Source: a virus. Taken from it: a stretch of DNA of 32,542 nt. The notes beneath the pieces are model-generated. The model was not told where the DNA came from. It did not search any database and saw only the letters and a list, made by a program, of their open reading frames with translations. A program made the position numbers and the translations under genes. Positions 30 to 25,200 of this stretch are shown piece after piece (the first letter of the stretch is position 1; each line of letters starts with the position of its first letter). Location: IMG/VR virus record IMGVR_UViG_3300020198_001775, positions 1 through 32,542 of that record; one strand, given 5' to 3'.

Positions 30-1013
30 TCAAATCTGAGTTGTGTAGTTCTTTTGAAAGTCCGCGTATGCCAAACACAGCCCCTCTTCGAGGCTTACGT
101 TGGCGTGCCAGCCCAGTGCGTTGAGTCGTGAGCTATCCATCAGCTTGCGCGGAGTTCCATCCGGTTTGCTTGGATCGAAGACGATCTCACCCTGGTAGCC
201 GATGGTTTTGCCAACCAATTCGGCGAGTTCCTTGATCGTGATATCCAGACCGCAGCCGACGTTGATGTGGCTAAGCATGGGCTGGGTGTGCTGGTCGTAG
301 GTGGCTTTGTCTAGGTTCATGACGTGCACGCAGGCGGCGGCCATGTCGTCCACATACAAGAATTCGCGCCTGGGTATGCCCGTGCCCCAGATGGTGACGC
401 TGGGTGCTTGGTTAACCTTGGCTTCGTGAAAGCGGCGGATAAGCGCCGGGATGACGTGGGAGTTTTCCGGGTGGTAGTTGTCGCCAGGGCCGTAAAGGTT
501 GGTGGGCATGACGCTGCGGTAGTCCACCCCGTGGCTGTCCCCATACTGGCGGTTGTAGCTTTCGCAGAGCTTGATGCCGGCAATCTTGGCAATGGCGTAG
601 GGCTCATTGGTGGGTTCCAGCGTGCCGGTGAGCAAGGCGTCTTCGCGCATGGGCTGCGAGGCCAGCTTGGGGTAGATGCAGCTGGAGCCCAGAAAGAGCA
701 GCTTTTGCACGCCGTTGCGGAAAGCCGCATCAATGACGTTGGCTTCCACCATAAGGTTGCTGTAAATGAACTCAGCCGGGTAGGTGTTGTTGGCGTGGAT
801 TCCACCGACTTTGGCAGCAGCCAAGTAGACCTGGTCGGGCTTTTCTTTTTCAAAGAATGCGTTGACCACAGCCTGATTCGTAAGGTCGAGTTCTGCATGG
901 GTGCGGGTGACGATGCGTTCAGCAGGATGACCCTGGACCAGCAACTGGCGCACGATGGCCGAGCCCACCATGCCCCGGTGGCCAGCGACGTAGATTTTGG
1001 GATGTTGGGTCAT
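30..1013 (-). CDS. fcl: GDP-L-fucose synthase
   Basis: A 327-residue short-chain dehydrogenase/reductase-type epimerase-reductase that converts GDP-4-keto-6-deoxy-D-mannose to GDP-L-fucose with NADPH, in the cytosol, as the last step of GDP-fucose synthesis. The N-terminal Rossmann motif GHRGMVG is at residues 11-17. The catalytic Ser/Cys segment GSSCIYP is at 109-115, and the YxxxK pair is Tyr139/Lys143. His186, in the NSHVIPA segment, matches the catalytic histidine of the E. coli enzyme. Length is normal for the family and similarity to E. coli Fcl/WcaG runs end to end. The ATG overlaps the manC stop by four bases (ATGA), so the two are translationally coupled. Members of the family are also called WcaG. 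Confidence 0.96.
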
Positions 1014-2476
1014 GATTGCGCCCGTCCGTAGGTGTCCTCGAACCGGACGATGTCATCCTCGCCCAAGTAACTGCCCGACTGCACCTCGATGATTTCGAGT
1101 GGAATGCTGCCGGGGTTGGCCAGTCGATGCACCTCGCCCAGTGGGATGTAGGTGGACTGGTTTTCGGTGAGCAGCAACACCTGACTGCCATTGGTGATTT
1201 CGGCGGTGCCTTTGACGACGACCCAGTGCTCGGCCCGGTGGTGGTGCTTTTGCAGGCTGAGGCTGGCACCCGGCTTGACCTGAATGCGCTTGACCTTGAA
1301 GCGCCCGCCTTCGTCGATGCTGTCGTACCAGCCCCAGGGGCGGTGCACTTTGCGGTGCAGGGTGTGTTCTTCGCGCTTTGTGTTCTGCAACTGGGCGACG
1401 ATGTGCTTCACGTCTTGGCTGCGAGACTTGTCGGCCACCAGCACGGCGTCGGGTGTTTCCACCACGATGAGGTTTTCAACTCCCACCAGACTGACCAGGC
1501 GGCTGGAGGCATGCACCAGGGTGTTGCGGCTGTGGGTGGTGAGCACGTCGCCCACATGGGCGTTGCCGTTTTCGTCTTTGGGCAGAACATTCCAAACGGC
1601 GTCCCACGCGCCGAGGTCGCTCCAGCCGGCGTCCAGCGGCACCATGTGGATCGGAAATGGGCTGCCGGGGCAACGTTCCATGACGGCGAAGTCGATGGAT
1701 TCGCTGGGGATCACTGTGAATTCGGCCTTGCCTGGGCGAACAAATGGAGTAGCGGGGTTGGCGTCGGTGCTGCGCTTAGCCCAAGCTTCGGCTGTGGCTT
1801 GGTAGATATCGGGCCGTAACTGCGCGAGCGCCTGCAGCCAGACCGAGGCTTTGAGCACGAACATGCCGGCGTTCCAGTAGTAGCCGCCTTCGGCGAGGCA
1901 CTGCTGCGCTGTGGCGACGTTGGGCTTTTCGACAAAGCGTTGGACTGAATGGATTGCTTCGGCCTCGCCTCGCAATGACGGAGACGTTTGGATGTAGCCA
2001 TAGCCCGTTTCGGGCCGGTCGGGTGTGATGCCCAGGATGACGATGCTGCCCTGTTCAGCCACGCGCACGGCTTGCTGCATGGCGAGGGTGAAGGCGGCGG
2101 AGTTGGCTACCGTCTGGTCAGCGGGGGTGACGACCAGAACAGGGTCGGTACCGTTTTGTTGTGCGGCCAGCGCAGCCAGGGTGAGTGCTGGGGCGGTGTT
2201 GCGACCCACCGGTTCCAGCAGCGCTGCGCCCATTTCGATGCCAACTTCCCGCAGTTGCTCGGAAGCCAGAAAGCGGTGCTCTTCGCCAGTGACGATCAGG
2301 GGCTTGGCCACCTGAATGTCGTCAGTGCCGACGGAAGCCAGGCGTTGCGCGGCTTGCTGGAAGAGGCTTTCGTTACCGGTGAGGCTCAGGAACTGCTTCG
2401 GAAAGCCGGCACGCGACAGCGGCCACAGGCGGGTGCCAGAGCCACCGCAGAGAATGACGGGGGTAATTTGAATCAT
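1010..2476 (-). CDS. manC: Mannose-1-phosphate guanylyltransferase / mannose-6-phosphate isomerase (bifunctional)
   Basis: A 488-residue type II PMI-GMP enzyme that supplies GDP-mannose for EPS synthesis. The N-terminal nucleotidyltransferase carries the GGSGTRLWP signature at residues 11-19, PAD at about 118-120, and FVEKP at 181-185. The C-terminal cupin isomerase domain carries RPWGWYD at 379-385 and a metal-binding [10 protein letters not shown] at 409-418. An upstream in-frame ATG at 2497 would add seven residues. I chose the ATG at 2476 because family members begin a few residues before the GGSGTR loop and because it gives an ATGA overlap with the regulator's stop. The stop in turn overlaps fcl by four bases. 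Alternative names in other species are algA, cpsB, xanB or rfbM. Confidence 0.95.
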
Positions 2477-2844
2477 GCTTTCTGAGTTTTCTGGCAATCG
2501 GCCTGGTCATCACCCACTTCAGCCTTCAGCGCCTCAATCTCCACCTTCAGCGCGTCGTACTCTTCCATCTTGCGTTTCAGGAACCGGCTGGTCAGCGCCA
2601 CTTTTTCGGCAATGCCTTGTGGCGTGAGCAGGTAAACGTACTTGAACTTGTTCTTGCTTTTGGAGAAGTTCGCCATCTTCACAAAGCCCTTGTCGATGAG
2701 GGCGTTGAGGCAGTAGTTCAGCCCGCCAACGCTCATGCCGAGCTTGTCGGCCAGCTCACGCTGGGTCAGATCCGGGTTGTCTTGCAAGATGCGCATGATC
2801 CGGAAATGGGTGTCCTCTTGGATCTTGGCTTGGCGGCTGATCAT
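2473..2844 (-). CDS. MarR-family EPS-associated transcriptional regulator
   Basis: A 123-residue protein. Residues about 8-75 form a winged helix-turn-helix (DLTQRELADKLGMSVGGL is the recognition region, followed by a basic wing with several Lys). The C-terminus from about residue 85 is charged and helical, likely a coiled coil for dimerisation. This matches the small MarR-type regulators found at the head of exopolysaccharide operons; the family assignment is from memory of that architecture. It is the first gene after a 233-base leader that carries an ops element, and it overlaps manC by four bases. Upstream of its ATG there is only a weak AAGAG ten bases away, which is compatible with RfaH-assisted translation. 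It could autoregulate the operon, but no operator is proven. Confidence 0.88.
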   Translation of the reverse strand: MISRQAKIQEDTHFRIMRILQDNPDLTQRELADKLGMSVGGLNYCLNALIDKGFVKMANFSKSKNKFKYVYLLTPQGIAEKVALTSRFLKRKMEEYDALKVEIEALKAEVGDDQADCQKTQKA

Positions 2845-2893
2845 GTTTGTGCGGCTCTTTTTTGAGTTGTCGTAAGGACTAAATGGGCTTCGG

Positions 2894-2906
2894 GCACGCT
2901 ACCGCC
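2894..2906 (-). promoter_or_regulatory. ops (operon polarity suppressor) element, RfaH recruitment site
   Basis: On the minus strand the sequence reads GGCGGTAGCGTGC, matching all 12 positions of the ops consensus GGCGGTAGCGTG known from E. coli rfa/wca-type operons, plus the usual following C. It lies in the coding orientation, in the 5' leader of the EPS operon, 49 bases before the regulator's ATG. RfaH binds the non-template strand of ops in a paused RNA polymerase and then travels with it, suppressing termination. An RfaH-like protein is encoded in this window at 8371-9303. Confidence 0.85.
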
Positions 2907-3002
2907 ATGCCGTGTCACGATCGGCTGGCGCGGTCTGGGGGGCAAAAAGTAAGGTGTAACGCACTTCCGTAAGAAGTCGAACAAGTCTACCGCAGAACCG
3001 CC

Positions 3003-3025
3003 TTCCGTTCGAGAGCTGAACGGAA
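3003..3025. promoter_or_regulatory. Perfect 8-bp inverted repeat in the EPS leader region
   Basis: TTCCGTTC and GAACGGAA flank a 7-base spacer, giving a perfect dyad about 160 bases upstream of the MarR-type regulator gene and 97 bases upstream of the ops site. The size fits an operator for a dimeric regulator, for example the MarR-type protein itself. It could also be a simple RNA hairpin. No convincing sigma-70 promoter was recognised around it, although the adjoining 3022-3040 stretch is AT-rich. Confidence 0.35.
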
Positions 3026-5197: not shown

Positions 5198-6778
5198 TCA
5201 GACACGGCGCTGCAGGCGCTCCCGCTCCGACATGCCGTAGAAGAAGTTCAGGTCGTCAAAGCGAAAGCACTCGAAGTCGGCGCTGTTTTTGTTGCTGACG
5301 CGGATTTCCTGATCGGGCAGGTCCAGCCGGGGCAGCAGGTAATAGTCCAGCTCGCTCGCGTTGGCGGCGTCCAGCCGGATAGCGACGGTGATGTCGGGAT
5401 CGAACTTGGCTGGGTCAAACCGGATGCGCCAGCGCTGGTGGCCGTTGGCCGCTGTCTGGCAGCGGGCCAACACCAGGCTGATGACCAGTTCGTCGTTGAG
5501 GGTGAGCAGATCAGTCTTGGGGTCGCGCCGGATCTGGCCGCCGAGTTCGGCGATGGTGTGCTCAGTGCGGCTGACGATTTCCGGGTGGAGTTGACGCAGG
5601 CGCCGGTTGATCTCCAGGAACTCGGTGCTGCGCGGGCAGTGGTAGCCCACCAGCTCATACGCCCGGGTCAGGCTGCCAAAGCGCTGGATGTAGGTGGCCG
5701 CACTGGGCAGCGCCGGGGCCTGGTCGATGATGAAACCCGACAGGCGACCGCATTCGGCGTACAGGGCCTTGAGGTGGTCGAGCAGTTCGGCATCGGTCAG
5801 CTTCTTGCTGCGTTCGGCCAGGATTTCCTGCGCGGCCATGAAGGTGGCCACCGGCACGATGCCGTCAAACGCGCCTTCCTTGCGGATCCACATCTCGGGC
5901 GGGTTATCAACATGCTTCTTCTTGAGCTTGAAGGAGTGGCGGTTGTAGACGTTGTTGCCGATGTATTTCTCGTTGGTCAGCACCTGGCGCACGGTGCTGT
6001 AGGTCCAGGGGCGGTCCTGGTCGGTGTAAATGGGCTGGTCGTTCAGGCGCTTGACAATCTCAGCCAATGGCAAGTCGCCCTCCACCAGCCAGCGGTAGAT
6101 CTGGTTGACGGTGGCGACTTCTGAATCGGGCCCGGGCATCAGGATCACCCGGTCGGTCTGCAGGCTTTTGTGCTCGCCGCGCTTGAGTTCGCCTTTGACC
6201 TGGCCAGACTGGTCGATGAGCACCCGGCGCAGGCCAAAGCCTGCCGGGCCGCCCTGGCGAAAGCCCATCTCGATCAAGCGGCACTGGCCGGCGAAGACCT
6301 TGGCCGAGAGTTCGCGGCTGTATTCACCCGCCATGGCGCGCTTGACGCCTTTGACGATGGTTGAAACGGGCGAGCCGTCGTTTTCGAACTGCTCGGCGAC
6401 GTAGGCGACTGCGATGCCTTTGCGCTTGCAGATGTACTCGTAATACGCCGACTCATCCGCGTCCTGAAATCGCCCCCAGCGACTGACGTCGTAGACCAGG
6501 ATCAGGTTGAAGTCGGTGTTGCCGGACTCGACATCGGCGATCAGGCGCTGGAGCGAGGCGCGACCGTCGATGGACAGGCCGCTTTTGCCTTCGTCGGCAT
6601 AGGTGCGGACGATCTGAATGTTGCGCCGGTCGGCGTATTCTTGGATCTTGTCGGCCTGGTTGTGCGTGGAGTACTGCTGATGCTCGGTGGACATGCGCAC
6701 GTACTGGGCGGCGCGGAAGGCCGGAGTTGAACCTTGGGTTGTCGGTGGCTCTGGGGTGGGGTCGGATGCTGTGGCCAT
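5198..6778 (-). CDS. Site-specific serine recombinase (large, resolvase/invertase type)
   Basis: About 526 residues. The N-terminal resolvase catalytic domain has YVRMS with nucleophile Ser30 at residues 26-30, KSGL at 65-68 and the arginine-bearing DVSRWGR at 97-103. A recombinase domain follows at about 175-285. The C-terminal 200 residues are family-specific, and I see no obvious zinc ribbon. It probably catalyses integration/excision or inversion of DNA through a phosphoserine intermediate. The ATG at 6778 has a weak AGAAAG upstream; in-frame alternatives are ATG 6808 and TTG 6826. It heads an operon with the two ParB/RepB-like genes and is divergent from the hydrolase gene. No att sites were recognised. 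It could serve its own small element rather than the downstream prophage. Confidence 0.9.
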   Translation of the reverse strand: MATASDPTPEPPTTQGSTPAFRAAQYVRMSTEHQQYSTHNQADKIQEYADRRNIQIVRTYADEGKSGLSIDGRASLQRLIADVESGNTDFNLILVYDVSRWGRFQDADESAYYEYICKRKGIAVAYVAEQFENDGSPVSTIVKGVKRAMAGEYSRELSAKVFAGQCRLIEMGFRQGGPAGFGLRRVLIDQSGQVKGELKRGEHKSLQTDRVILMPGPDSEVATVNQIYRWLVEGDLPLAEIVKRLNDQPIYTDQDRPWTYSTVRQVLTNEKYIGNNVYNRHSFKLKKKHVDNPPEMWIRKEGAFDGIVPVATFMAAQEILAERSKKLTDAELLDHLKALYAECGRLSGFIIDQAPALPSAATYIQRFGSLTRAYELVGYHCPRSTEFLEINRRLRQLHPEIVSRTEHTIAELGGQIRRDPKTDLLTLNDELVISLVLARCQTAANGHQRWRIRFDPAKFDPDITVAIRLDAANASELDYYLLPRLDLPDQEIRVSNKNSADFECFRFDDLNFFYGMSERERLQRRV

Positions 6779-6947
6779 GTTCTTTCTGCGCTCGTTCGTT
6801 TGAGCCATGTTTGCTTCGAAGGCCAAGACGTATCAAGGCGTTCGGCGCAGAAAGAAGGCGATAAGGCGAAGAAAGCGGCGGTGGCCAGCATTGCATCGAG
6901 GGGTGATCCGGTATCCTGTCTCGAGATGGATGTATGAATGGTTTTCG

Positions 6948-7478
6948 ATGAGAAAAACAGAAGCGGATGGCCAGGCCAGTCAGTGGCTCAGTGAGGAAGT
7001 TTTCAGCAGCGCGTGCGCGGCACTACCCTTGGTCTCGATTGATTTGATGATTACCCGGCCGGGCAATCAAGGGCGGGAACTGCTCTTGGGCTTGCGCAAT
7101 AACCGACCCGCACAAGGCTGGTGGTTTACGCCTGGAGGCCGGATTCGCAAGAACGAACCGTTGCCGACTGCTTTACGACGGGTGGCGCGGGAAGAAATTG
7201 GGTTGAATCTCGACTGGTTGGGTCGTGCTCAACTCTTGGGCGCCTGGGACCACTTTTACCCGGACAGCGCCTTCGACCCGGGCGTTTCCACCCACTACGT
7301 GAATTTGCCGCATGTGCTGCACTTGACACAGGACGAGGCCCAAACGGTGCAGCCCCCAAGTGGTCAGGAGCTTCAGCACCAAACGTGGATGTGGGTGCCT
7401 GTGGCGCAGGCCTCTACTGACGAACGCATCCACGAAAACGTGCGCGTGGTATTGCCCCGGCTGGGGGCAGCCTGAAAT
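6948..7478 (+). CDS. GDP-mannose mannosyl hydrolase (Nudix family)
   Basis: About 176 residues, the only plus-strand EPS gene. RPAQGWWFTPGG at residues 53-64 leads into the Nudix box (64-86), which has the variant form typical of GDP-mannose hydrolases: the first Glu of REUXEE is replaced (RVAREEIGL). The protein resembles E. coli Gmm/WcaH throughout, including the WDHFYPDS segment. It would hydrolyse GDP-mannose to GDP and mannose and so tune the sugar-nucleotide pool. The start is uncertain: ATG 6948 fits the family's N-terminus, ATG 6930 adds six residues and has a slightly better GAG upstream, and the open frame extends to 6807. The coding part ends with the TGA at 7473-7475, after which a 6-bp palindrome (7470-7483) spans the convergent stops. 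Confidence 0.87.
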
Positions 7479-8239
7479 CAGGCGAACTGTGAGAGCTTGC
7501 TCAGGTTCTTCCAGGCGATGGCACGCAGGGCGCCAGGCACGCTGAATTCACAGCTGCGCAGGGCACGCCAGTCCTCTTTGGACTTCTTGATGATGGCTTT
7601 GATGGACTTGTTGCTGGCGCCGCCCAGTCGCATGGTGACCAGCACGTCGGGGATGTACACAGTTTTGAACTGCGGATGGGTGAAGAACTTCAAGATGCTG
7701 AGGTAGTCGGCGGCGATCCGGTAGCTGATGTCAAACCCACCGATCTTCGAATACCAGTCGCGCCGCACATACAGCGTCGGATGGGCGGGCATCCAGCCCC
7801 AGCCGAGATCCCGCCGGTTGAACGGCTTGCTTTGCCAGCGGCGAATCACCTTCGACGTGTCTTGCTGGCTGACATATTCCAGGTCGCCGTATACAGCGCA
7901 GACTGTAGGGTCCTCGAAGGCCTGGGCGATCTTGGAAAGCACATCGTCTGAGGTGTACAAATCGTCCGCATGCAGGAACCCCACCACATCACCAGTGGCC
8001 AGTTGGATGCCTTTATTCAGGGCGTCGTAAATGCCCTTGTCACGCTCGCTTTTGAACGTGGCGATTTGGTCGATGTGCTGGTTAATGACATCGATGGTTC
8101 CGTCGGTGCTGGCGCCGTCGACGATCACGTGTTCGCGATGGGCGTAGCTTTGCCGCGCCACCGATGCCAAACAGTCTGGAAGTGTACTGGCGCAGTTCCA
8201 TGTCGCTGTAACGACGGAGATTGTTATGTTGTTTCCCAT
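7478..8239 (-). CDS. Family 2 glycosyltransferase (WcaE-like)
   Basis: A 253-residue GT-A enzyme. The chain opens with the hydrophobic strand ISVVTATWN, then VDGASTDGT at about 41-49, ERDKGIYDALNKG at about 65-77, and the metal-binding HADD at 90-93. These are hallmarks of GT2 enzymes of the colanic-acid WcaE kind that transfer a sugar to a growing lipid-linked repeat at the cytoplasmic membrane face. I chose the ATG at 8239 because the family begins right before the SVVTA strand; an upstream in-frame start at 8320 would add 27 unrelated residues and overlap the leader hairpin. It is convergent with the hydrolase gene and lies downstream of the RfaH-like gene in the same direction. The donor sugar cannot be read from sequence. 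Confidence 0.9.
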   Translation of the reverse strand: MGNNITISVVTATWNCASTLPDCLASVARQSYAHREHVIVDGASTDGTIDVINQHIDQIATFKSERDKGIYDALNKGIQLATGDVVGFLHADDLYTSDDVLSKIAQAFEDPTVCAVYGDLEYVSQQDTSKVIRRWQSKPFNRRDLGWGWMPAHPTLYVRRDWYSKIGGFDISYRIAADYLSILKFFTHPQFKTVYIPDVLVTMRLGGASNKSIKAIIKKSKEDWRALRSCEFSVPGALRAIAWKNLSKLSQFA

Positions 8240-8287
8240 ATTGTGGGATTTTCTCAGATAGATGATGTCAAAAGCCAGAAGAAGCGA

Positions 8288-8312
8288 CACGACCCTGCGA
8301 AACAGGGTCGTG
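8288..8312 (-). terminator. 10-bp perfect stem-loop between the RfaH-like gene and the glycosyltransferase
   Basis: CACGACCCTG and CAGGGTCGTG form a perfect 10-bp stem with a 5-base loop. It stands 58 bases after the RfaH-like stop and 48 bases before the glycosyltransferase ATG. On the minus strand it is followed by an interrupted pyrimidine stretch (CTTCTTCTGGCTTTT) rather than a clean T-run. It may end the RfaH-like transcript or act as an attenuator in the glycosyltransferase leader. Confidence 0.5.
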
Positions 8313-8334
8313 AATGGCACGAATGTCTGAGATG

Positions 8335-8370: not shown

Positions 8371-9303
8371 CTACCCGGCCTTGCGCAGCCGCCCGGCATC
8401 GATCTGCATGGACACGGGTTTGGCGAGGATTTCGAGCAGGATGAAGGCGCGGCGCTCGGCGTCTGCCGTCTGGTAGATCGCCTCAATGCCGGCGAATGGG
8501 CCGTCGGTGATGACCACCGAATCGCCGCTGTGGAACATGGCTTCGGTGGGCAGGGTCCGCTCCCGCTGGCGCAGCAGATCGACCAGGTTGTCATCCACTT
8601 TGGCCGCTCTAGCTCCGAAATGCACCAGCTGGCTCACCCCCAGGGTGGAGCGGATCGGTGACCAGCTTTTGCCTTGGTCGCTGCTGTCCAGCCGGATGAA
8701 TAGGTAGCGCGGGAACATGGGCTCGGTGGCGACCTCTGCCTTGCGCCGCCGGATTCGCTCGATGCGCATCTGGGGCCGGTAACACTCGTAGCCCTGACGT
8801 TCCAGGTTGGCCAGGGCGATGTCTTCTTGGCGGGGTTTGGTGTGGACCAGGTACCAAGAGAGCGTGCTGGGTGCTGAGGACTCAGTGCTGAGTGGGGTGG
8901 CTTCGTCACTGCTGATGACGGCCAGCACGGGTGGCGTGGCAGGTGGTGGCTCGTTTGGCGGCGGCAGCGGCGCCGGTGTCGGCGATGAAGTGGCCACAGA
9001 GACCTGTTGCAGGATGGGCGAGAGCTTGAAACCGGCATGATCCGCCATCGCCCGCAGCAAGGTCAAAGGTCGTTCACTGGCCAGCACCTGCTCGATCAGC
9101 ATCGCGGCCTCGTGCCGCTCGATGTCTTGCACATCGGCCGGCAGGTAGTGAATCGACAAGCCCCGCTGCACGATGGGCGGGCCAATGCCCCGCAGCCGAA
9201 GGTCTTGCAGTTGCCGTGTGGTCAGGCCCATGCGATCAGCGACCTGGGACGCACTGAGCGTGGTGGCCGGTGTTGGCGTGGAGCGGTCGTTTTTGTTCTG
9301 CAT
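8371..9303 (-). CDS. RfaH-like transcription antiterminator fused to an N-terminal helix-turn-helix
   Basis: 310 residues in three parts. Residues about 15-65 resemble the AlpA/excisionase (MerR-like) HTH: LSASQVADRMG, then LRLRGIGPP. A Pro/Ser/Thr-rich linker spans about 103-148. Residues 149-246 are an NGN domain and 258-295 a KOW domain. EPMFPRYLF, TLGVSQLVHFGA and GDSVVITDGPFAG align better with E. coli RfaH than with NusG. RfaH binds RNA polymerase paused at ops sites and suppresses termination in long surface-polysaccharide operons; an exact ops site is in this window. RfaH itself is about 160 residues, so the 148-residue N-terminal half is extra. The frame is unbroken and no start codon lies near the NGN boundary, so the fusion looks genuine. 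GGAG sits just before the ATG. The prophage terminator lies immediately upstream. Confidence 0.88.
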   Translation of the reverse strand: MQNKNDRSTPTPATTLSASQVADRMGLTTRQLQDLRLRGIGPPIVQRGLSIHYLPADVQDIERHEAAMLIEQVLASERPLTLLRAMADHAGFKLSPILQQVSVATSSPTPAPLPPPNEPPPATPPVLAVISSDEATPLSTESSAPSTLSWYLVHTKPRQEDIALANLERQGYECYRPQMRIERIRRRKAEVATEPMFPRYLFIRLDSSDQGKSWSPIRSTLGVSQLVHFGARAAKVDDNLVDLLRQRERTLPTEAMFHSGDSVVITDGPFAGIEAIYQTADAERRAFILLEILAKPVSMQIDAGRLRKAG

Positions 9304-9472: not shown

Positions 9473-9958
9473 CTAGCGCGTCTGGCGGATCCAGTCCTGC
9501 AGGGCTTTCAGTTGCTCGGCGTTTTCAATGCAGGTTTGGTAGTTGGTGACGACGGTAGCGGCAACGGCAGAGAGCGCAAGTCCTTCGGCGGGCGCATCAG
9601 CATCTCCGGGGGCTGTGGGCAACTCACCGGCGGCGGCAGCGTCGTGCAGGCTGACAAAGCCACGGTGGACAGTGCAAGCAACATCGGCTTGAACGGGGAC
9701 ATAAACGGGTACCTCCTGGATGAGGGTGTCGCCCTTTTCTCGGACGACCTGGATGCGGTCGACGTACTGGGTGACGACTTGGACGGTGGCTTGCGCCTGC
9801 CGGGTTTGCGCTTGGGCCTGAGCCTGCTGCTGTGCGACTGTGGCGGCGTCCCACTGGGCATGAACGTAACTCGCGCCCTTTAGCCAGCCGAAGCCGAACA
9901 GAGCGATGCCAAGCACCGCCAGGGCCAGCAGCCGGTTTGGCCACGAGATCAGGCTCAC
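9473..9958 (-). CDS. Rz-like spanin, inner-membrane subunit
   Basis: 161 residues from a GTG at 9958 whose GTGA overlaps the endolysin stop. An N-terminal transmembrane segment (about residues 8-26, LLALAVLGIALFGFGW) is followed by a Gln/Ala-rich helical periplasmic domain, as in i-spanins that bridge to the outer-membrane Rz1 lipoprotein and fuse the two membranes in the last step of lysis. An ORF extension to 10087 reads back into the endolysin gene and lacks a reason to be used. Position after holin and endolysin and the embedded Rz1 support the call. Confidence 0.85.
   Translation of the reverse strand: MSLISWPNRLLALAVLGIALFGFGWLKGASYVHAQWDAATVAQQQAQAQAQTRQAQATVQVVTQYVDRIQVVREKGDTLIQEVPVYVPVQADVACTVHRGFVSLHDAAAAGELPTAPGDADAPAEGLALSAVAATVVTNYQTCIENAEQLKALQDWIRQTR
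9508..9702 (-). CDS. Rz1-like outer-membrane spanin lipoprotein embedded in Rz
   Basis: A 64-residue frame lying wholly inside the Rz gene in another reading frame. It begins with a short hydrophobic signal (MLLALSTVALSAC) ending in a lipobox with the acylated cysteine at residue 19, followed by a Pro-rich body (TTLPPPVSCPQPP) typical of Rz1. The ATG at 9702 is preceded by AGGAGG nine bases upstream, which is better than the internal ATG at 9684. It would be anchored to the outer membrane and pair with Rz. Confidence 0.85.
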   Translation of the reverse strand: MSPFKPMLLALSTVALSACTTLPPPVSCPQPPEMLMRPPKDLRSLPLPLPSSPTTKPALKTPSN

Positions 9959-10464
9959 GGCGCTTCCCCGATGCACTGCCGGTATTCGGCCTCGCGGCGC
10001 TTGGCCAAGCCACCGCAGAGGCGTGCATTGGTGGGCAGCGCACAGTCCTTGCCCTGAAAGAAGCGCCAACGCAGCAGCTCTTGGCACGCACCGGGGTAGT
10101 CCTGGCTGTTGAGCTTTTTGACGAGGGTGGACTGGCAGAACGCGCGCGGGCCCACGTTGTAGGCAAAGCTGACGTAGGCGTCGTACTCGTGCTGGGCCAG
10201 CGGAACCGTGACGCAGGTTTTGAGGGCACCTTCGAACTGCTGGACATCGCGCAGCGCCCGGGCCAAGGCCTGGGGCGGCGTGGTGGTGTCGCCCAGGCGC
10301 ACGGGCGAGCCGTCAGCACGGGTGGTGCTGCCAAAGCCGAGCGTGGGCACATCGCCCTTGACCGGAATGATGGCGCGGTCGCTGTAGCCCTCGTGCAGCA
10401 CCAGGCCCACCAGGGCGGCGGCCGACAGGCCCAGCGCGGCCACGGCGGTGCGGGGGCGCCTCAT
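9955..10464 (-). CDS. Phage lysozyme / endolysin (GH24)
   Basis: 169 residues. An N-terminal hydrophobic segment (residues 7-23, no clear cleavage site) resembles a signal-anchor-release domain, which would export the enzyme by Sec and hold it inactive until the membrane is depolarised. The catalytic region begins HEGYSDRAIIPVKGD with Glu25 as the likely acid; Asp38 and Thr41 are candidates for the rest of the triad, followed by LGFGST. Several cysteines in the body are compatible with disulphide control. It cleaves the glycan backbone of peptidoglycan. It overlaps the holin-like gene upstream by four bases and Rz downstream by four bases. Confidence 0.9.
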   Translation of the reverse strand: MRRPRTAVAALGLSAAALVGLVLHEGYSDRAIIPVKGDVPTLGFGSTTRADGSPVRLGDTTTPPQALARALRDVQQFEGALKTCVTVPLAQHEYDAYVSFAYNVGPRAFCQSTLVKKLNSQDYPGACQELLRWRFFQGKDCALPTNARLCGGLAKRREAEYRQCIGEAP

Positions 10465-10703
10465 GGCTGTACCTCATGCATCTTGGGCTGGGCCACCAGG
10501 CGCGCCACGGTGGCACCCAGACTGGCGGCAAAGGCCAGCAGCACGAACAGGCCCCGGGGCAGGACGTCGCCCAAGAAAGGCAACACCACCTCGGCCGCCG
10601 TGAAGCACGCGGCCAGCAGCGAGAAACGGATGCTCCAGGCCTGGCGCAGCACGCGCGGCCAGTTGGTCAGCAGACTGGGAGTGGGCATATTCACGGGCTT
10701 CAT
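10461..10703 (-). CDS. Holin-like small membrane protein
   Basis: 80 residues with two hydrophobic stretches (about 27-46 and 50-68), separated by a short turn with Pro-Arg. That layout suits a small phage holin or related membrane protein. The ATG at 10703 overlaps the previous stop (ATGA) and the gene overlaps the endolysin by four bases, so it belongs to the lysis cassette. A longer open frame up to 10895 is antisense-free but runs through the neighbouring gene and is not needed. Function as holin is inferred from position and topology. Confidence 0.65.
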   Translation of the reverse strand: MKPVNMPTPSLLTNWPRVLRQAWSIRFSLLAACFTAAEVVLPFLGDVLPRGLFVLLAFAASLGATVARLVAQPKMHEVQP

Positions 10704-10990
10704 TGCGTGCCTCCCATGAGCTTCAATTTGATGGCCGCACCGACCAGGATGACGGCCAGCAGCCCAGTGGTGGCCACCTTGATGATGGTTTGCCAGGCGG
10801 TGTGGCGGGCCTCGCGCCAGGCTTCGAGCAGGTCGCGCAGTTCGCGGATGTCGCGCGCGGCGTGGCCGTTTTCCAGGCCGAGGTGAGCCAGGCAACGCTC
10901 GGCTCCGCGTTCGGCGGCGCGGGTGAGCAGGTCGTCCAGGTCTTCGGGGCGCAGGGTGATGGCGGCCTCGCTGGTTTCAGTTTCAGACAT
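10700..10990 (-). CDS. Small phage protein with C-terminal membrane helix (lysis cassette)
   Basis: 96 residues. The N-terminal two thirds are acidic and helical (a RAAERGAERCLAHLGL segment, then a coiled-coil-like ELRDLLEAWREAR), and the C-terminus carries one hydrophobic helix (about 70-90). This is the layout of a family of uncharacterised phage proteins (DUF6127-like, from memory) found beside holins. The ATG at 10990 has GGAG eight bases upstream. It is the first gene after a strong terminator, so the lysis genes must be reached by readthrough, antitermination or a local promoter. It might be a holin, an antiholin or an accessory factor. Confidence 0.65.
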   Translation of the reverse strand: MSETETSEAAITLRPEDLDDLLTRAAERGAERCLAHLGLENGHAARDIRELRDLLEAWREARHTAWQTIIKVATTGLLAVILVGAAIKLKLMGGTQ

Positions 10991-11006
10991 CGGTGGTCTC
11001 CAAAGC

Positions 11007-11040
11007 AAAACGCCCGCACTGGCGTGTAACCAAGCGGGCG
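11007..11040 (-). terminator. Intrinsic terminator between the oxygenase gene and the lysis cassette
   Basis: CGCCCGC (11011-11017) and GCGGGCG (11034-11040) form a GC-rich stem with a 16-base loop. On the minus strand the stem is followed directly by TTTTGC. It ends the tail-fibre/oxygenase segment 20 bases after that operon's last stop. Confidence 0.72.
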
Positions 11041-11060
11041 CGGTGTTGTTGAGGGGATAG

Positions 11061-11642
11061 TCAGGTTTTCAGGGGAATGCGGTGGGCGTCCCACAGGCCC
11101 GTCGGGCAGCACATGGAAAGCAGCAGGATGTAACGCGGTCGCAGCCCCTGCGCGGTGGTCACCGCGTGGATATGGGCACTGGCCGCGTAGGCGTGCAATT
11201 CACGCTCCTCGATGGGCCAGTGGGTGTTCTGACCGCGCTCATCTTTGAGCCACAACTCGCCACCGACGTCGGCCTGCCGGATCAGGACGTTGAGCCGGAT
11301 GACATCAAAGCCTTCCAAGGGCGTTGGGTCACGGTGGGCATAGGTATCGCCACCGGGCAGCGTTGCCACCAGGATGACGCCATCGCCTTGTGCGGTTGGC
11401 TCCGGTCGGGATCCATCTGGCCAGTGATACAGCGCACGCACCCGCTCAAAGATCTGACGTGCCTCATCGGGGATGGCAAAGGACGTCTGCTGGCGGGTGG
11501 TCAGGCGCTCACCATAACCCCAACGTCCACGGCTCAGACCCGGCTTGAGCAAACCGCCGGGCTGTACATTGGCGTCAAACCAGCGCACCAGTTCTTGCCG
11601 CTCGGCCTCGCTGATGAACTCGGGGTGACGATCAAAGCGCAT
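11061..11642 (-). CDS. 2OG-Fe(II) oxygenase-like protein
   Basis: 193 residues. An HxD pair (HRD, His103 and Asp105) and a distal His159 followed by an Arg (about 170, in RPRYIL) fit the iron- and 2-oxoglutarate-binding residues of the prolyl-hydroxylase-type double-stranded beta-helix family. Between them lies a VGGELWLKD segment typical of the fold. The ATG at 11642 overlaps the cupin stop by one base (TGATG), so the two are coupled. An upstream extension to 11732 would run through the cupin gene. Such oxygenases occur in many phage late regions, where they may hydroxylate a phage structural protein or a host molecule. The substrate here is unknown. Confidence 0.75.
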   Translation of the reverse strand: MRFDRHPEFISEAERQELVRWFDANVQPGGLLKPGLSRGRWGYGERLTTRQQTSFAIPDEARQIFERVRALYHWPDGSRPEPTAQGDGVILVATLPGGDTYAHRDPTPLEGFDVIRLNVLIRQADVGGELWLKDERGQNTHWPIEERELHAYAASAHIHAVTTAQGLRPRYILLLSMCCPTGLWDAHRIPLKT

Positions 11643-12124
11643 CAGACGGTGTCCATCGGCACCGGTGTAATCCGGAAGTAGCGCTCCGACTTGGCGCCGG
11701 CAACCAGCGGGTGCGTCTCGTCGCCGAACCACTTGCCTTCGGGAATGTCGTCCGGGTTCATGATGTCCTCGACCTTGGTGCCATTGCGAACGGCGTGGAT
11801 GCAGTACGCCACAGAGTCATCCTCCAAGGCCTCGATCAGGTGTTCCTTGCCGGCGGCGACAAACACGATGGTAGGCGCTGCGAACTCGGCCAACCGGTCT
11901 TCCACACGCACACGGAAGCGTCCCTTGGCCAGCAATGTCTGGTGATCGAAAGCGTGCTTGTGGCCGCAGTTGCGGTCGCCGGCCTTCCTGAAATGCATTT
12001 GCTTGATCCAGGTGTTGGCGACCAGGCTCACTTTTTCATCGGGGGACGAAGAGTCGGAGGGAAAGGCAGCCGGTCCAACGGTGCTGCACTGGGCTTTCTT
12101 GTTGATGGTCAGGTTGTCAGTCAT
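11642..12124 (-). CDS. Cupin-like phage protein
   Basis: 160 residues. HKHAFDHQ (His55, His57, His61) followed by Gly69 resembles cupin motif 1. AGKEHLI (His95) resembles motif 2, so a metal-binding beta-barrel is likely at about 40-115. The N-terminus is polar and probably flexible, and the C-terminus is unassigned. GAGG six bases upstream supports the ATG. It is coupled to the oxygenase-like gene by a one-base overlap and lies between the tail fibre genes and that enzyme, suggesting a joint role. Function is not known. Confidence 0.65.
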   Translation of the reverse strand: MTDNLTINKKAQCSTVGPAAFPSDSSSPDEKVSLVANTWIKQMHFRKAGDRNCGHKHAFDHQTLLAKGRFRVRVEDRLAEFAAPTIVFVAAGKEHLIEALEDDSVAYCIHAVRNGTKVEDIMNPDDIPEGKWFGDETHPLVAGAKSERYFRITPVPMDTV

Positions 12125-12125
12125 G

Positions 12126-12359
12126 TCATACCTCTACGGCAGGGATGGTTTCAGAGGGATTGGGGGCTGGTGCGGCCCGCATCACCACCTGGCCGTCGAT
12201 GTAATACAAGGCTTGGCCCTCAGGGCAGTTGCTCAATTCGTCCATTACGTCGGTGGGCGTTTCGAGCAAGTCGGATTCGGTGACGAGCTGGTCGTCGGGA
12301 TAGCGATAGCAGTCGGTGATCAGGCCGCTGTCGGGCGCGATGCGGATGTAGTTGCGCAT
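12126..12359 (-). CDS. Small phage protein downstream of tail fibre gene
   Basis: 77 residues, MRNYIRIAPDSG at the start, acidic overall, with a short YYIDGQVVMR strand. AGGAG six bases before the ATG supports translation. It follows the receptor-binding candidate gene and precedes the cupin gene by one base. Its place suits a tail-fibre assembly or chaperone-like protein, but I do not recognise the family. Confidence 0.6.
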   Translation of the reverse strand: MRNYIRIAPDSGLITDCYRYPDDQLVTESDLLETPTDVMDELSNCPEGQALYYIDGQVVMRAAPAPNPSETIPAVEV

Positions 12360-12393
12360 GGTGTGCTCCTGGTATTCGTTAGATCATTTGGAA

Positions 12394-13287
12394 TCAAGCC
12401 GTACGCAGGAACAGTAGCGAGCCAATTCCCGCGCTTTCGGCGATGCGGATTTCCATGCCGCCCGAGTTGTTGTAGTAAGGCGCGTACTGCGATCGAGTCT
12501 GCAGTTCGATCACATCCCCAGTGTTGAGCGTGACCGCAACAGGCGCTGAGTACAGGTAGTTGGAAACGTACGTCGTGCTGTTGGTGGACACTGCCACCTT
12601 CTCGACTCCATTGACCAGCACGCGGGCGTAGCCGTAGCAGTAATTGGTGCCCTTGCCATAGAAGTAACGGCCGACTTGCGTCTTGGCATACAGGTTGACT
12701 ACGGAGCCACTTTTACCGTTGAAGGTATGCACACCCCGTTGTGTCCAGGCTGTACTGGGATGACTCCCAGTGATGCCGATCGGCGTGTTGACCGTCCCGG
12801 CCGTGGTCAGCGTCGCGGCCGCAGCTTCAAACAGCGTGGTCGGCTCCACGATCGGCGTCTTGCCAAAGATGCGCCAGGTGGTGCCGGTGCTGACGCACAG
12901 ACACGAGATGCCCGGTGCGAGCGTGATCGTGATGCTGCCGTCGATGGTCTCGCTGGCATACGGATCAATGGTGATCGTTCCTGAACCGGAATTGCATACG
13001 GCAAAGGCGAACCCTGAACCCAGACTGGCGGAGGCAGAAAGGCTCAGCGTCCAGGTGCCACTGCAGTCGATCAATCGACCTCGATCGGCCGTCACAACGG
13101 TGTAGGCAGCGGTCTTGGTGAGCACGCCACTGACCAAGGCGCCCATGGTGGCCAAGGCAGTGGCAATCGCACCATCGGCACCCAGCAGTGAGGCCAGGAA
13201 TTCACGCTGATCGGTAATGGCTTGCTTGAACTGGGCTTCGGTAACGGTGGAGCCCGTGAAGGATGAACTGGCGGGTAAAGCGGGCAT
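12394..13287 (-). CDS. Distal tail fibre / receptor-binding candidate
   Basis: 297 residues. The N-terminal 45 residues are helical (EAQFKQAITDQREFLASLLG). The rest is Ser/Thr/Gly-rich beta structure, with a middle block (about 55-145) containing a TYVV-type repeat-like strand pattern common to phage fibres and a C-terminal block (about 185-290) rich in Tyr, Asn and Gly that could be the receptor-binding head. GGAG seven bases upstream of the ATG supports the start. The ATG abuts the stop of the preceding gene. No enzymatic motif was seen. Binding of a host surface polysaccharide is a guess from position. Confidence 0.7.
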   Translation of the reverse strand: MPALPASSSFTGSTVTEAQFKQAITDQREFLASLLGADGAIATALATMGALVSGVLTKTAAYTVVTADRGRLIDCSGTWTLSLSASASLGSGFAFAVCNSGSGTITIDPYASETIDGSITITLAPGISCLCVSTGTTWRIFGKTPIVEPTTLFEAAAATLTTAGTVNTPIGITGSHPSTAWTQRGVHTFNGKSGSVVNLYAKTQVGRYFYGKGTNYCYGYARVLVNGVEKVAVSTNSTTYVSNYLYSAPVAVTLNTGDVIELQTRSQYAPYYNNSGGMEIRIAESAGIGSLLFLRTA

Positions 13288-13515
13288 TTACTGTCTCCAC
13301 ATCAGGGTGGAGGTGTTGAGACTCCACATGGGGGTATCGGGGCCGAGCACCGCGCGCGCTTCAAGCATCAGCATGGTCTCGACGCCATTGAGGTTTTGTT
13401 TGAGGAACAGGCGGCCGTCATAGGTATTGATGGCCAGCTCGCCCAGTTGCAATTGCGCCGTGGTCGGCACTCGGCCAGACACAGCGGTTTGTTTGACCTT
13501 GATGGTTTGCGGCAT
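13288..13515 (-). CDS. Short fibre protein with Mtd-like N-terminal domain
   Basis: 75 residues. The opening MPQTIKVKQTA and the LQLGELAINTYDGRLF segment resemble the N-terminal domain of major tropism determinant-type fibres. The adjacent larger fibre gene begins with a near copy (MPQTIQIKRST, then SLAAGELAWSETSKNLF). The protein is little more than this domain plus a short tail that ends MWSLNTSTLMWRQ, reminiscent of the C-terminus of the I-J protein (MWQANAASLMWRY). It may be an adaptor that anchors the next fibre or a truncated duplicate. It is 12 bases downstream of the larger fibre gene. Confidence 0.65.
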   Translation of the reverse strand: MPQTIKVKQTAVSGRVPTTAQLQLGELAINTYDGRLFLKQNLNGVETMLMLEARAVLGPDTPMWSLNTSTLMWRQ

Positions 13516-13527
13516 CGCCCTGCCCCG

Positions 13528-14727
13528 TCAGAAACTACCGCCATCAATCACTGCGCTGGTCGACAGTGCATCCGTGATACCAAAGCCTGCCAAGGTGGTG
13601 GGTTTGCCAGTGACACTGCTCCACGCCGGGGTGTTGGTCGTGGTGCCGGCAACGGTGAGTCGGCCCTTGGCGTCCACCGTGAAGGTCGGAATCAAGGCGC
13701 CAGCGCCGTAACTGGCCGCCGTCACACCAGTGCTGGCCAAGGTGGCAGAACCCGTGACGTTGGCCGAGCCATCAAAGGCGGCGGACGTCCAACTCACATC
13801 GCCCGTCATGGCGATGGTTCGAGCCGTCAGGAGCTTGGTGGCGGTACCCGCATTGCCCGTGATGGTGGTGATGGTCACGGCACCTGTGGCACCGTTGACG
13901 CTGGAGACCGAGTCGGTGTTGTCGATCTTGTCCCAGGCCGCGCCGTTGCTGACGATCCAGTCCCCCACCTGCCAGTCGGTGATGCCGCTGACGTTGGTGG
14001 CGCCTGCGGTGGCCACCTTGTAATAGAAGCCCTTGTTGCTGCTGGACGCAGTAGGGATAGTGGGCGTGTTGGTGCTGGCGTTCCAGGTGCCCTGGTAATT
14101 CATGCCACCAATGGCCACCGCCGGCAACTGCGAGGTTGGCACCTTGCCGTCTGCACCCAGACCCGCCACACCGTTGGCCGCACCAATGGCCGAGGTGGCA
14201 ATGGCGCCGATCGCTGCTGGCGTGGGCAAGGCATGAACGTGGTCGGCGCGTGCGGCGGTGGTAGCGGTGCCGGCTGTTGCACTGGCCGCCAGCGAACTGG
14301 GTGCAGCAGTGGTCAGGCCCAAGGCATCGGTGATGCCGTAGCCACTGAGTGTGGTTGGCTTGCCTGTGATCGAGGTCCAAGCCGGGGTGATGGACATATT
14401 GGCCGCCGCCGTCAATCGCCCCTTGGCATCGACCGTGAACTGGCCGACCTGGGTGGCGCTGCCGTAACTGCCAGCGGTGACACCGGTTGCAGGCAAAGCC
14501 ACCGCGACTCCGGCAGACACGGTTCCGGTGCCAGACACGTCGCCGGAGATGGCTAGGCTGTCTGCCTTCTTGGCAAAGGTACCTGCACCGGCGATGGCGG
14601 TGATGGCGTTCCCACTCTCACCGATGAAGAGGTTCTTGGAGGTTTCCGACCAGGCCAATTCGCCTGCCGCCAGGGACGGCGGTGTGGCGGTGGTGGTCGA
14701 GCGTTTGATCTGGATGGTTTGGGGCAT
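13528..14727 (-). CDS. Tail fibre protein with internal repeat
   Basis: 399 residues. An Mtd-type N-terminal domain occupies about 1-50. The rest is Gly/Ala/Thr/Ser-rich, with two copies of a block holding FTVDAKGRLT and ITGKPTTLSGYGITDAL, at residues 83-137 and 335-389, which are typical phage fibre shaft repeats. Between them is a region (about 205-285) with GTWNAST and WQVGDWIVSNG that looks like a separate globular insert. AAGGAG seven bases before the ATG supports the start. It would form a trimeric fibre attached near the baseplate. The gene sits between a collagen-like small gene and a short gene sharing its N-terminus. Confidence 0.8.
   Translation of the reverse strand: MPQTIQIKRSTTTATPPSLAAGELAWSETSKNLFIGESGNAITAIAGAGTFAKKADSLAISGDVSGTGTVSAGVAVALPATGVTAGSYGSATQVGQFTVDAKGRLTAAANMSITPAWTSITGKPTTLSGYGITDALGLTTAAPSSLAASATAGTATTAARADHVHALPTPAAIGAIATSAIGAANGVAGLGADGKVPTSQLPAVAIGGMNYQGTWNASTNTPTIPTASSSNKGFYYKVATAGATNVSGITDWQVGDWIVSNGAAWDKIDNTDSVSSVNGATGAVTITTITGNAGTATKLLTARTIAMTGDVSWTSAAFDGSANVTGSATLASTGVTAASYGAGALIPTFTVDAKGRLTVAGTTTNTPAWSSVTGKPTTLAGFGITDALSTSAVIDGGSF
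13561..13725 (-). repeat. Tail fibre internal repeat, copy 2
   Basis: This encodes residues 335-389 of the fibre protein. It matches copy 1 at 14317-14481 in the order VTA(G/A)SYG, FTVDAKGRLT, TPAW, TGKPTTL, GITDAL. The copies have diverged in their third codon positions, so the duplication is old. Confidence 0.75.
14317..14481 (-). repeat. Tail fibre internal repeat, copy 1
   Basis: This encodes residues 83-137 of the fibre protein and is the partner of the copy at 13561-13725, about 0.75 kb away. It could support recombination that shortens or swaps the insert between the copies. Confidence 0.75.
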
Positions 14728-14759
14728 GTTGGTGCTCCTTAATGTTTAGAACTGCCGAG

Positions 14760-14963
14760 TCAGAAGTAGCCGGCGTTTATGACGGCATCGGGGTCGAGCA
14801 CGCCTTGATCGCCTTTCTCACCTTTGGGGCCGGTGGGACCTGGCACACCGATGTTGGTGAGCACGGTGCGCAGGCCTTGTGGCTGCACCCGCACGGTTTG
14901 GGTGTCGGCTTGCACCGTGACGCCGGGCTGGCGCGGCGTGGTGATGGAGATGCGGATGGCCAT
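14760..14963 (-). CDS. Small protein with collagen-like segment
   Basis: 67 residues. A beta-rich N-terminus (about 1-38) is followed by GPTGPKGEKGDQG, four collagen-type G-x-y triplets, and a short tail. Phage fibres often use such collagen triplets to trimerise. The protein probably links the baseplate to the large fibre whose gene follows. The upstream ribosome binding site is weak and the ATG lies ten bases after the previous stop, so coupling is likely. Confidence 0.7.
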   Translation of the reverse strand: MAIRISITTPRQPGVTVQADTQTVRVQPQGLRTVLTNIGVPGPTGPKGEKGDQGVLDPDAVINAGYF

Positions 14964-14973
14964 GGGTCACCCG

Positions 14974-15312
14974 TCAATTGCGCGTCACGCGCATGGCCAC
15001 CAGCACATTGCCTCTGAGCAGCTGGGTGCGAATCCCTGCGGGACTGGTCATGAAGAGGTCGTACACACAGGCCCGCACCGGCAATGCACTGGTGACTGAA
15101 GCGGGCAAGGTGATGGCCACCGTGCCACTGGCCAGACGACTTTCATCAAAACCAAAACTCGCCAGTACGGTGGGGTCTTCCGGCGTGCCACGGATCTGGC
15201 CTTCAAAGACATAGCCCGTCAGGTCCATCACCGCCCCGCCCTCGTCGAGCGTGAGCGCCGTGTAAAAGGTTTCGCCTTGCGCCAGTGGAATGTCGTACTT
15301 GGGGGCGCTCAT
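14974..15312 (-). CDS. Baseplate-associated beta protein (BppU-like N-terminal domain, tentative)
   Basis: 112 residues that begin YDIPLAQGETFYTALTLDEGG, then DLTGYVFEGQIR, and end in a VYDLFMTS...GNVLVAMRV strand set. This pattern resembles the small beta domain at the N-terminus of phage baseplate upper proteins. AGGAG seven bases before the ATG supports the start. It stands between the I-J tail tip gene and the fibre genes, as expected for a connector. The assignment is by motif impression only. Confidence 0.65.
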   Translation of the reverse strand: MSAPKYDIPLAQGETFYTALTLDEGGAVMDLTGYVFEGQIRGTPEDPTVLASFGFDESRLASGTVAITLPASVTSALPVRACVYDLFMTSPAGIRTQLLRGNVLVAMRVTRN

Positions 15313-15345
15313 TGCTGAACTCCTGTTACTTGTTTGCGTGATCGG

Positions 15346-18246: not shown

Positions 18247-18638
18247 GACAGCACCCTCAAGCCCACGCTGGGCAATGCAGCCACCGGGGTGAAAACCACA
18301 CCGGCGGTTTCCAGGGAATGCAGCACACCACCCCCATTGGCCTGCAGGTAGATGCCAATGTGGCTGGGGCGTTCGGACTTGCCCATCAGGCAGGCATCGC
18401 CTTCACGTGGCTCGCTCACGCTGTGCCAATGGCCGTATTCCGGATGATCGTCAAATGCACGCAGCGAGGCCAAGCGACTGGTCGCATCCACATCAATGGC
18501 CGCCACATCCCAGCCGAATCGTTCACGCCAGACACGACGTGCAAACGACCAGCAGTCGCTGCTGCCCGCCACCCAGGGCAGGCCGATGTACTGGCTGGCC
18601 CAGTGCGGTGTGCTGTCACCATGGTTTGAAGGGTTCAT
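18228..18638 (-). CDS. NlpC/P60-type tail peptidase (gpK-like)
   Basis: 136 residues. The catalytic Cys29 is in SSDCWSFARRVW, His93 is in PSHIGIYL, and His107 may complete the triad. These fit the C40 peptidase fold seen in lambda gpK. Lambda gpK also has an N-terminal JAB metalloprotease domain, and none is present here. The enzyme may cut peptidoglycan during injection or process the I-like domain of the next protein. The gene overlaps its upstream neighbour by four bases and the I-J gene by 19 bases. Confidence 0.88.
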   Translation of the reverse strand: MNPSNHGDSTPHWASQYIGLPWVAGSSDCWSFARRVWRERFGWDVAAIDVDATSRLASLRAFDDHPEYGHWHSVSEPREGDACLMGKSERPSHIGIYLQANGGGVLHSLETAGVVFTPVAALPSVGLRVLSWHRRR

Positions 18639-19174
18639 TGCGCAATCAGTCCAGGAAATACTTCGGCCGTGTAGTCCAGGCCAGGAAACCGCCTGTTGGC
18701 GAGGTTCGGAAACCCACAGGTGGCACGCACCCGGAACACGGTGGCGGAAATCGACATCACGGTCAGGGTCAGCGGCGGGTTGTTCTGCGGAGCCGTGAGA
18801 TCTGAGGACAGGAATGCCCGGTAGGTCACGGTGATCAACTCGCTGCTACCAGGCTGTCCGTTCATAGACGCCTCCACGTTGGCCAGGATGTCGCGGCTGA
18901 CGTTGTCGATCTCGATCACGCATTGCGGCACGGCGGTGTGCGTAACCTCGGGCGGCACCACATCAAAGGCGTAGCCCACAAAGGTGACGTACTGACCTGC
19001 GTTGCGCGGCGCACTGGACTCCAGCTTGGCTGTGAGATCTACGTGATCACGCACGACCCGGATCGGCGTAGTGAAGTTTGGATGCCAGATCTCCAGCGTG
19101 TGGTGAATCACCAGGTTCGATGGCGCACTGGCGTAAGCCTCCTTGATCGCCAGACTCAAAGTGTCATCTGGCAT
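18635..19174 (-). CDS. Minor tail protein (gpL-like, DUF1833 type)
   Basis: 179 residues. The opening DDTLSLAIKEAYASAP and the HTLEIWHP segment match the tail-tip family of DUF1833 proteins as I remember it, which occupy the lambda gpL position. I chose the ATG at 19174 because it overlaps the previous stop by one base (TGATG); the ORF extends to 19207 without a better start. It lies between M- and K-like genes, so it is probably part of the tail tip hub. Confidence 0.7.
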   Translation of the reverse strand: MPDDTLSLAIKEAYASAPSNLVIHHTLEIWHPNFTTPIRVVRDHVDLTAKLESSAPRNAGQYVTFVGYAFDVVPPEVTHTAVPQCVIEIDNVSRDILANVEASMNGQPGSSELITVTYRAFLSSDLTAPQNNPPLTLTVMSISATVFRVRATCGFPNLANRRFPGLDYTAEVFPGLIAQ

Positions 19175-19527
19175 CACCGCACCTCCAGTTTGGAGCTCAC
19201 CTGCCAACGCGGGCCAGGCTGCATCTCAGATTGCCAGGGGCCGACGAAGCGGGCCTGGACCGAGCGCAATCCGGCGTCCCCGGTGTTCAGGTCGACCGTG
19301 AACCAACTGGCTCCATTGGCACAGTCGCCATCGAACCAAGCGCGAAACGCGGCCATTTGGGCATCGGAGAAACGCCAGGACGCACTCACTTGGTCATTGC
19401 GCGCAGCACTGCGGCGACGCACACGGGGCGTTCCAGCCTCCATGTCGGTGCGAACGGTGGCATCCACGGACGCGATCGCGTAGCCCGCGACCAAGGGCCG
19501 AGGCAAAGTTGTGGGCCAGGTGGCCAT
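19174..19527 (-). CDS. Minor tail protein (gpM-like)
   Basis: 117 residues. It begins MATWPTTLPRPLVAGYAI and contains SWRFSDAQMAAFRAWFDGDCANGASWFTV, a pattern of small tail-tip proteins encoded right after the tape measure gene in lambda-like phages. The gene starts 13 bases after the tape measure stop. Role is inferred from position and resemblance to that group. Confidence 0.7.
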   Translation of the reverse strand: MATWPTTLPRPLVAGYAIASVDATVRTDMEAGTPRVRRRSAARNDQVSASWRFSDAQMAAFRAWFDGDCANGASWFTVDLNTGDAGLRSVQARFVGPWQSEMQPGPRWQVSSKLEVR

Positions 19528-19540
19528 ATTTGTCTCCGAA

Positions 19541-22144: not shown

Positions 22145-22162
22145 GGGGAATCCGTCTTCGCT

Positions 22163-22812: not shown

Positions 22813-22832
22813 GAGAGTGTCCTGGGGGTGAA

Positions 22833-23771: not shown

Positions 23772-23796
23772 AGGTTTTCTCCTTCGGAGTTGGGAT

Positions 23797-25192: not shown

Positions 25193-25200
25193 CGCAGTGG

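Follow-up and report, generated by a model that had tools for sequence, protein, structure and literature searches.

An ops element preceded by a conserved hairpin, in the leader of a polysaccharide operon beside a phage-module RfaH gene: a probable betaproteobacterial analogue of JUMPstart

The window analysed here, a viral IMG/VR record of 32,542 nucleotides, contains a prophage end together with flanking DNA, and in its 5' leader the flanking operon bears an exact copy of the 12-mer GGCGGTAGCGTG (minus strand, 2895-2906), the next base, at 2894, being C. An RfaH gene lies in the same record, raising the question of whether the 12-mer is a site at which RfaH is loaded onto RNA polymerase and, if so, which RfaH would use it. 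The features discussed are collected in Table 1; phage late genes fill the right two thirds of the record.

Table 1. Features of the window, with position, strand and the basis on which each was assigned.
Feature	Position	Strand	Basis
fcl, GDP-L-fucose synthase	30..1013	-	NF047922, 519 bits
manC, mannose-1-phosphate guanylyltransferase / mannose-6-phosphate isomerase (GMP_PMI)	1010..2476	-	TIGR01479, 645 bits
MarR family EPS-associated regulator (MarR_EPS), first gene of the operon	2473..2844	-	TIGR04176, 159.3 bits (cut-off 88)
Whole conserved island: CGCGC arm, hairpin, ops, CCCRAA tail	2889..2932	-	Leader alignments, covariance model R1; no RF01707 match
ops element GGCGGTAGCGTG, candidate RfaH loading and pause site	2895..2906	-	Exact match; conserved in 28 aligned leaders
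Leader hairpin GCCG-ATCGTGACA-CGGC, ending 2 nt before ops	2909..2925	-	Folding, covariation, non-redundant folding test
Possible -10 box TAGACT, weak	2984..2989	-	Relatives have a TAGAAT/TAAACT-like hexamer at this alignment position
Probable MarR_EPS operator GTTCAGCTCTCGAAC, GTTCA-N5-TGAAC type	3007..3021	-	Palindrome common to MarR_EPS leaders
ParB-like protein 2 of phage module	3078..4157	-	Profile search; its end marks the phage/leader border, ~3045-3125
ParB-like protein 1 of phage module	4154..5104	-	Profile and PHROGs searches
Large serine recombinase, phage integrase type	5198..6826	-	Resolvase and Recombinase domains; phrog_95 integrase
Nudix hydrolase resembling GDP-mannose mannosyl hydrolase	6807..7475	+	117 bits, under the 146-bit cut-off
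GT2 glycosyltransferase	7478..8320	-	Absent from the same place in L003 and L145
RfaH with N-terminal extension: predicted HTH (~residues 16-60), linker, NGN + KOW (149-309)	8371..9303	-	TIGR01955, 166.1 bits (cut-off 144.5); AF2 model
Prophage late genes: Rz, endolysin, holin, tail, tape measure, capsid, portal, large terminase	9473..31688	-	PHROGs for endolysin, tail, tape measure, head, portal, terminase; Rz and holin by position and sequence

By sequence the 12-mer is an ops element, lying on the non-template strand of a 5' leader. The motif scan agreed in its coordinates with a preliminary description of this DNA, which had reported a full 12/12 match plus the following C, on the minus strand, 49 bases 5' of the first gene: the MarR ATG is at 2844, leaving 49 nt from 2894 (about 50 nt from the 12-mer). 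This is the sole copy in the window at 0 or 1 mismatch, while the window composition (62% GC) predicts an exact match 0.012 times per window over both strands and 4.6e-5 times per 250-nt leader. At up to 2 mismatches there are 6 matches against 5.2 expected, which is the chance level, so that the exact site alone counts. Of the operon proposed in the same description (marR-like/manC/fcl/(gmd)), family profiles bear out the first three genes; gmd is not in the window. Its further argument, that the weak ribosome binding site of the first gene fits RfaH-assisted translation, does not discriminate, since such sites are weak whether or not ops is present (medians 0.6 kcal/mol where it is and 0.2 kcal/mol where it is not; p=0.08).

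Among 28 aligned leaders, ops bases 2-9 and 11-12 are invariant, as are the C3:G8 pair and the loop G4-A7. Genome-wide the 12-mer occurs at 0-2 copies in most genomes, the same as a reversed-motif control. The search for extra copies that had been suggested as a check therefore returns the chance level and is not informative about function: the signal lies in position, and copy counting is a poor test. Position was assessed in 40 relatives of the window MarR gene taken from GTDB genomes, about half of which have ops or a close variant 14-72 nt from the start codon; the antisense strand of these leaders gave no comparable matches.

A sample not chosen for ops consisted of 300 Burkholderiales genomes, of which 45 have a MarR_EPS gene scoring over the cut-off, 44 of the leaders being read. 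RfaH is present in 33 of the 300 genomes. Counted at no more than one mismatch, ops was found in 10 of the 44 leaders and all ten come from RfaH-bearing genomes, while RfaH occurs in the genomes of just 3 of the 34 leaders lacking ops (co-occurrence table 10/0/3/31, p=1.2e-7). Loci in which MarR_EPS and RfaH are present and ops is absent (G017 and G094) count against RfaH loading at ops. Inspection of the DNA behind 35 rfaH genes from the same genomes revealed a same-strand exact ops 71-524 nt 3' of the RfaH domain in eight cases, with neither antisense ops nor reversed-motif matches, and the variant TGCGGTAGCCTG 154-221 nt downstream of three further rfaH genes. The common order in Burkholderiales is thus rfaH, ops leader and polysaccharide operon, whether or not MarR is present; in G049, G266 and G093 the gene after ops reads as a sugar-nucleotide epimerase or dehydrogenase. 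These comparative data, the co-occurrence and the placing of ops behind rfaH, make RfaH-controlled expression of the operon, as originally suggested, the best reading. In the open-access papers searched, ops was nowhere described in front of MarR_EPS genes, which is weak evidence of absence.

The variant TGCGGTAGCCTG constitutes a second ops class, changed at positions 1 and 10 and seen both in MarR leaders and behind rfaH genes (loci L009, L011, L012, L020, L029, L033, L034, L145, L208, L209 and L215); it is usually preceded directly by the end of a hairpin. A one-to-one pairing of ops class with RfaH type was sought and no simple rule emerged. Limnohabitans-type genomes also have a second, more divergent RfaH-like group, scoring 100-115 bits on TIGR01955 (G001 C22:285220, G309 C7:7675, L134, L126, L123 and L125).

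The ops element does not stand alone in these leaders. A block of about 44 nt, CGCGCTTGCCGATCGTGACACGGCATGGCGGTAGCGTGCCCAAA, is common to the leaders of 13 loci, with ops near its 3' end, and the general layout of this island is a short hairpin, 0-2 nt and then ops. The stem has 4 bp in the window, where the outer pair is lost, and 5-6 bp in relatives. Aligned without gaps, the 28 leaders support a hairpin of 5 bp (TGCCG/CGGCA) that has a loop of 9 nt and stops 1 nt short of ops: in its stem 90% of cells are paired, compared to 86% in shuffles and no more than 48% in slid versions, and the covariation score (0.256 vs 0.171) was reached by none of 500 shuffles. Two of the pairs show compensatory changes from C-G to U-A, and at one of the two the change is seen in 5 sequences. 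In a folding test on 20 non-redundant segments upstream of ops, 75% formed a hairpin of -4 kcal/mol or below ending within 3 nt of ops (shuffles 43%, best of 200 shuffled sets 70%), and their mean folding energy was lower than that of all 200 shuffled sets; the segments include leaders of unrelated sequence, for example L110 (genome G298) with its 10-bp stem. Counting against the hairpin, RNAalifold on the whole alignment favours a different, weak pairing of -3.3 kcal/mol. An alternative hairpin with ops in its loop (GGCA...TGCC) has 82% of its cells paired and covariation no better than shuffles. A count of contiguous stems with anchor shifts was less clear, stems appearing at other offsets too, and the folding test was used instead.

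A covariance model built from the island, R1, was run on the 300 Burkholderiales genomes and produced 12 strong matches of 48.6-68.3 bits, the next best scoring 32.6. All but one of the 12 lie in genomes with RfaH (11/12, p=6e-11). Seven of the 12 genomes had also supplied sequences to the model; in four of the remaining five rfaH lies 130-170 nt upstream of the element, the exception being G069.

The arrangement recalls JUMPstart, whose stem-loop has been reported for gamma-Proteobacteria (PMC2864571). Like the island, the JUMPstart RNA or 39-bp element (RF01707) has a 5-bp stem, an 8-9-nt loop, about 1 nt and ops at the 3' end, and sits in the leader of a polysaccharide operon; the E. coli JUMPstart sequences of rfb, wza and rfaQ folded into a hairpin at the same distance from ops. 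The two differ in that the sequence 5' of ops is unrelated and that in Burkholderiales rfaH is often encoded directly upstream. RF01707 scores 13.8 bits on the window, with ops alone aligned and a cut-off of 35, and reports none of the 12 strong island relatives even at E≤5. By score the window element is not a member of RF01707, yet it has that family's architecture, a stem-loop directly 5' of ops. Comparison of the sequences leads us to regard the window island as a betaproteobacterial JUMPstart analogue that would work as JUMPstart/ops does. No description of a betaproteobacterial form was found in the literature searched. On the other strand Rfam veev_FSE scored 23 bits against a cut-off of 55, a match attributed to chance.

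The hairpin stops 11-13 nt short of U11, where the RNA 3' end is expected, a spacing close to that of hairpin-stabilised pauses such as his. The ops pause has been treated as distinct from the hairpin-stabilised class (PMC11001881), and for this reason a role of the hairpin in pausing is offered solely as a proposal.

Upstream of the island lies a further shared element. A palindrome GTTC-N4-9-GAAC, nearly always GTTCA-N5-TGAAC, is present in 40 of 45 MarR_EPS leaders (shuffle mean 1.0), other palindromes occurring in 0-2 of the 45, and is the putative binding site of MarR_EPS. In leaders without ops its distance from the start codon is mostly about 70 nt or less, and in those with ops mostly 100-190 nt, which places the ops block between the operator and the gene. 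The palindrome sits downstream of the -10-like hexamer. A scan of the leader for a consensus sigma-70 promoter found none, which counts against the transcription start proposed below.

The RfaH paralogue noticed in the preliminary description is confirmed by its family profile, which scores over its cut-off across NGN and KOW. Residues 149-309 align to E. coli RfaH and the best PDB match of the AF2 model is 8phk_P, RfaH on the ops-paused complex; residues 1-148 form an extension with a low-confidence predicted helix-turn-helix, and this domain modelled alone by AF2 likewise gave low confidence (59.6). E48 and R138 help to keep E. coli RfaH in its closed form, and the pair is kept in the window RfaH and nearly all relatives; the role of E48 is described in PMC13015549. 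A 2026 preprint ties a beta CTD to ops-independent RfaH (PMC13015549), and the beta CTD that AF2 draws for the window protein, from a 32-sequence alignment too shallow to judge the closed state, counts against ops use, while the conserved E48/R138 argues the opposite way. Among residues contacting ops, K10, R23, Q24 and T72 are kept while H20 is N and R73 is L. As K10, H20, R23 and R73 are the four side chains touching ops bases in E. coli (PMC5995543), the change of two of them counts against the RfaH-ops reading. In sum, the window resembles the E. coli system (PMC5995543, PMC7593976) in its 12/12 ops bases, its RfaH equivalog score and several contact residues, and departs from it in H20N, R73L, the N-terminal extension of about 148 aa and the location of the gene in a phage module adjoining its presumed target. 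Like NusG paralogues encoded beside their target operon (PMC7593976, PMC13015549), its RfaH gene adjoins a long polysaccharide operon; beta-CTD RfaH in such a position is proposed to be ops-independent, whereas the window keeps a conserved ops.

The extended RfaH recurs in G001 (Limnohabitans sp. Bal53), in G309 and in 8 viral contigs, within a module that mostly runs, where the contig is long enough, from lysis genes or holin through HTH-RfaH and serine integrase to two ParB-like genes; the window RfaH is thus a phage-module gene. Extended RfaH loci beyond the window are L042, L118 and L221-L227. In the window, G001 and G309 the module ends at the ops-MarR leader, behind which stand manC-fcl in the window and G309 and other genes in G001. 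A more divergent module in G093 ends beside a complete host rfaH-ops locus: in L217, at 5262-10624, it directly adjoins the intact rfaH-ops-polysaccharide locus. Between HTH-RfaH and integrase the window has a 1.5-kb block (6885-8374; Nudix hydrolase on the plus strand, GT2 on the minus strand) which L003 and L145 do without, no more than 16 nt remaining at the junction. In the related prophage region of G001, the first residues of the translations point to three consecutive recombinase-like frames (contig C1 166041-169194, minus strand) and a second serine recombinase (C1 185058-186429). When the two ends of the G001 prophage were searched for an attachment repeat, the repeats found were of chance length only.

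Taken on sequence evidence, the window ops is very probably an RfaH loading site in a polysaccharide operon leader, loaded during leader transcription and antiterminating. RNA polymerase would start upstream, near the MarR_EPS operator; after some 80 nt had been transcribed a short RNA hairpin would form, and the polymerase would pause at ops with the hairpin, which may assist, just outside the RNA:DNA hybrid. RfaH could then read the exposed non-template ops strand, join the polymerase and make it less likely to terminate within the long marR-manC-fcl operon.

The RfaH in question would be that of the phage module rather than a chromosomal one. The converse, that a chromosomal RfaH acts at the window ops and the phage-module protein serves the phage or another target, is an appreciable, if lesser, possibility: the closest relative, G001, has a second RfaH-like gene (107 bits), and G093 has an intact host rfaH-ops locus next to its phage HTH-RfaH. 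Against it, no other rfaH lies between phage module and ops leader in the window, G001 or G309, and the core of the phage protein is 83% identical to the RfaH of L005, which stands alone upstream of an ops-marR operon. That RfaH is not involved at all, and ops acts simply as a strong pause, we think quite improbable; ops is a consensus RNA polymerase pause by itself (PMC5995543), and the two altered contact residues would suit such a role, but MarR_EPS genomes without RfaH are also without ops, and a pause alone would not track RfaH.

Improbable too is that the island is a DNA-binding or attachment site instead of an elongation signal. It lies next to the edge of a prophage that encodes a serine integrase, and it is partly palindromic; nevertheless, it directly follows rfaH, with no phage module, in G049, G266, G223, L028, L030 and L031, the MarR-linked palindrome is a site separate from it, and in G001 a search of the opposite end of the prophage region for the border sequence gave no copy longer than chance. 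As for a chance match, the 12-mer alone does occur at chance frequency genome-wide, but where it lies, how it is oriented and the fact that it is conserved, both in 28 leaders and behind 8 rfaH genes, leave that reading scarcely credible, conservation having already refuted it.

What is known of RfaH and ops comes mainly from enterobacteria, to which a large betaproteobacterial set with the same 12-mer is now added. Since the leader sequence is independent and its hairpin geometry the same, the unexplained JUMPstart stem-loop becomes directly testable; it seems, from the alignments, to be the position and pairing of the hairpin that are kept and not its sequence. The cis order rfaH-hairpin-ops-operon also supplies natural pairs of protein and site, including the second site class TGCGGTAGCCTG, and the presence of an RfaH-carrying phage next to such operons suggests how lysogeny might change the host surface. 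More speculatively, a temperate phage lineage with RfaH fused to a DNA-binding domain might integrate beside ops-controlled host sugar-coat operons and take over their expression by antitermination, a lysogenic conversion through an elongation factor, and the fixed-distance hairpin might add to the loading signal a second component that resides in structure alone, common to gamma- and betaproteobacteria.
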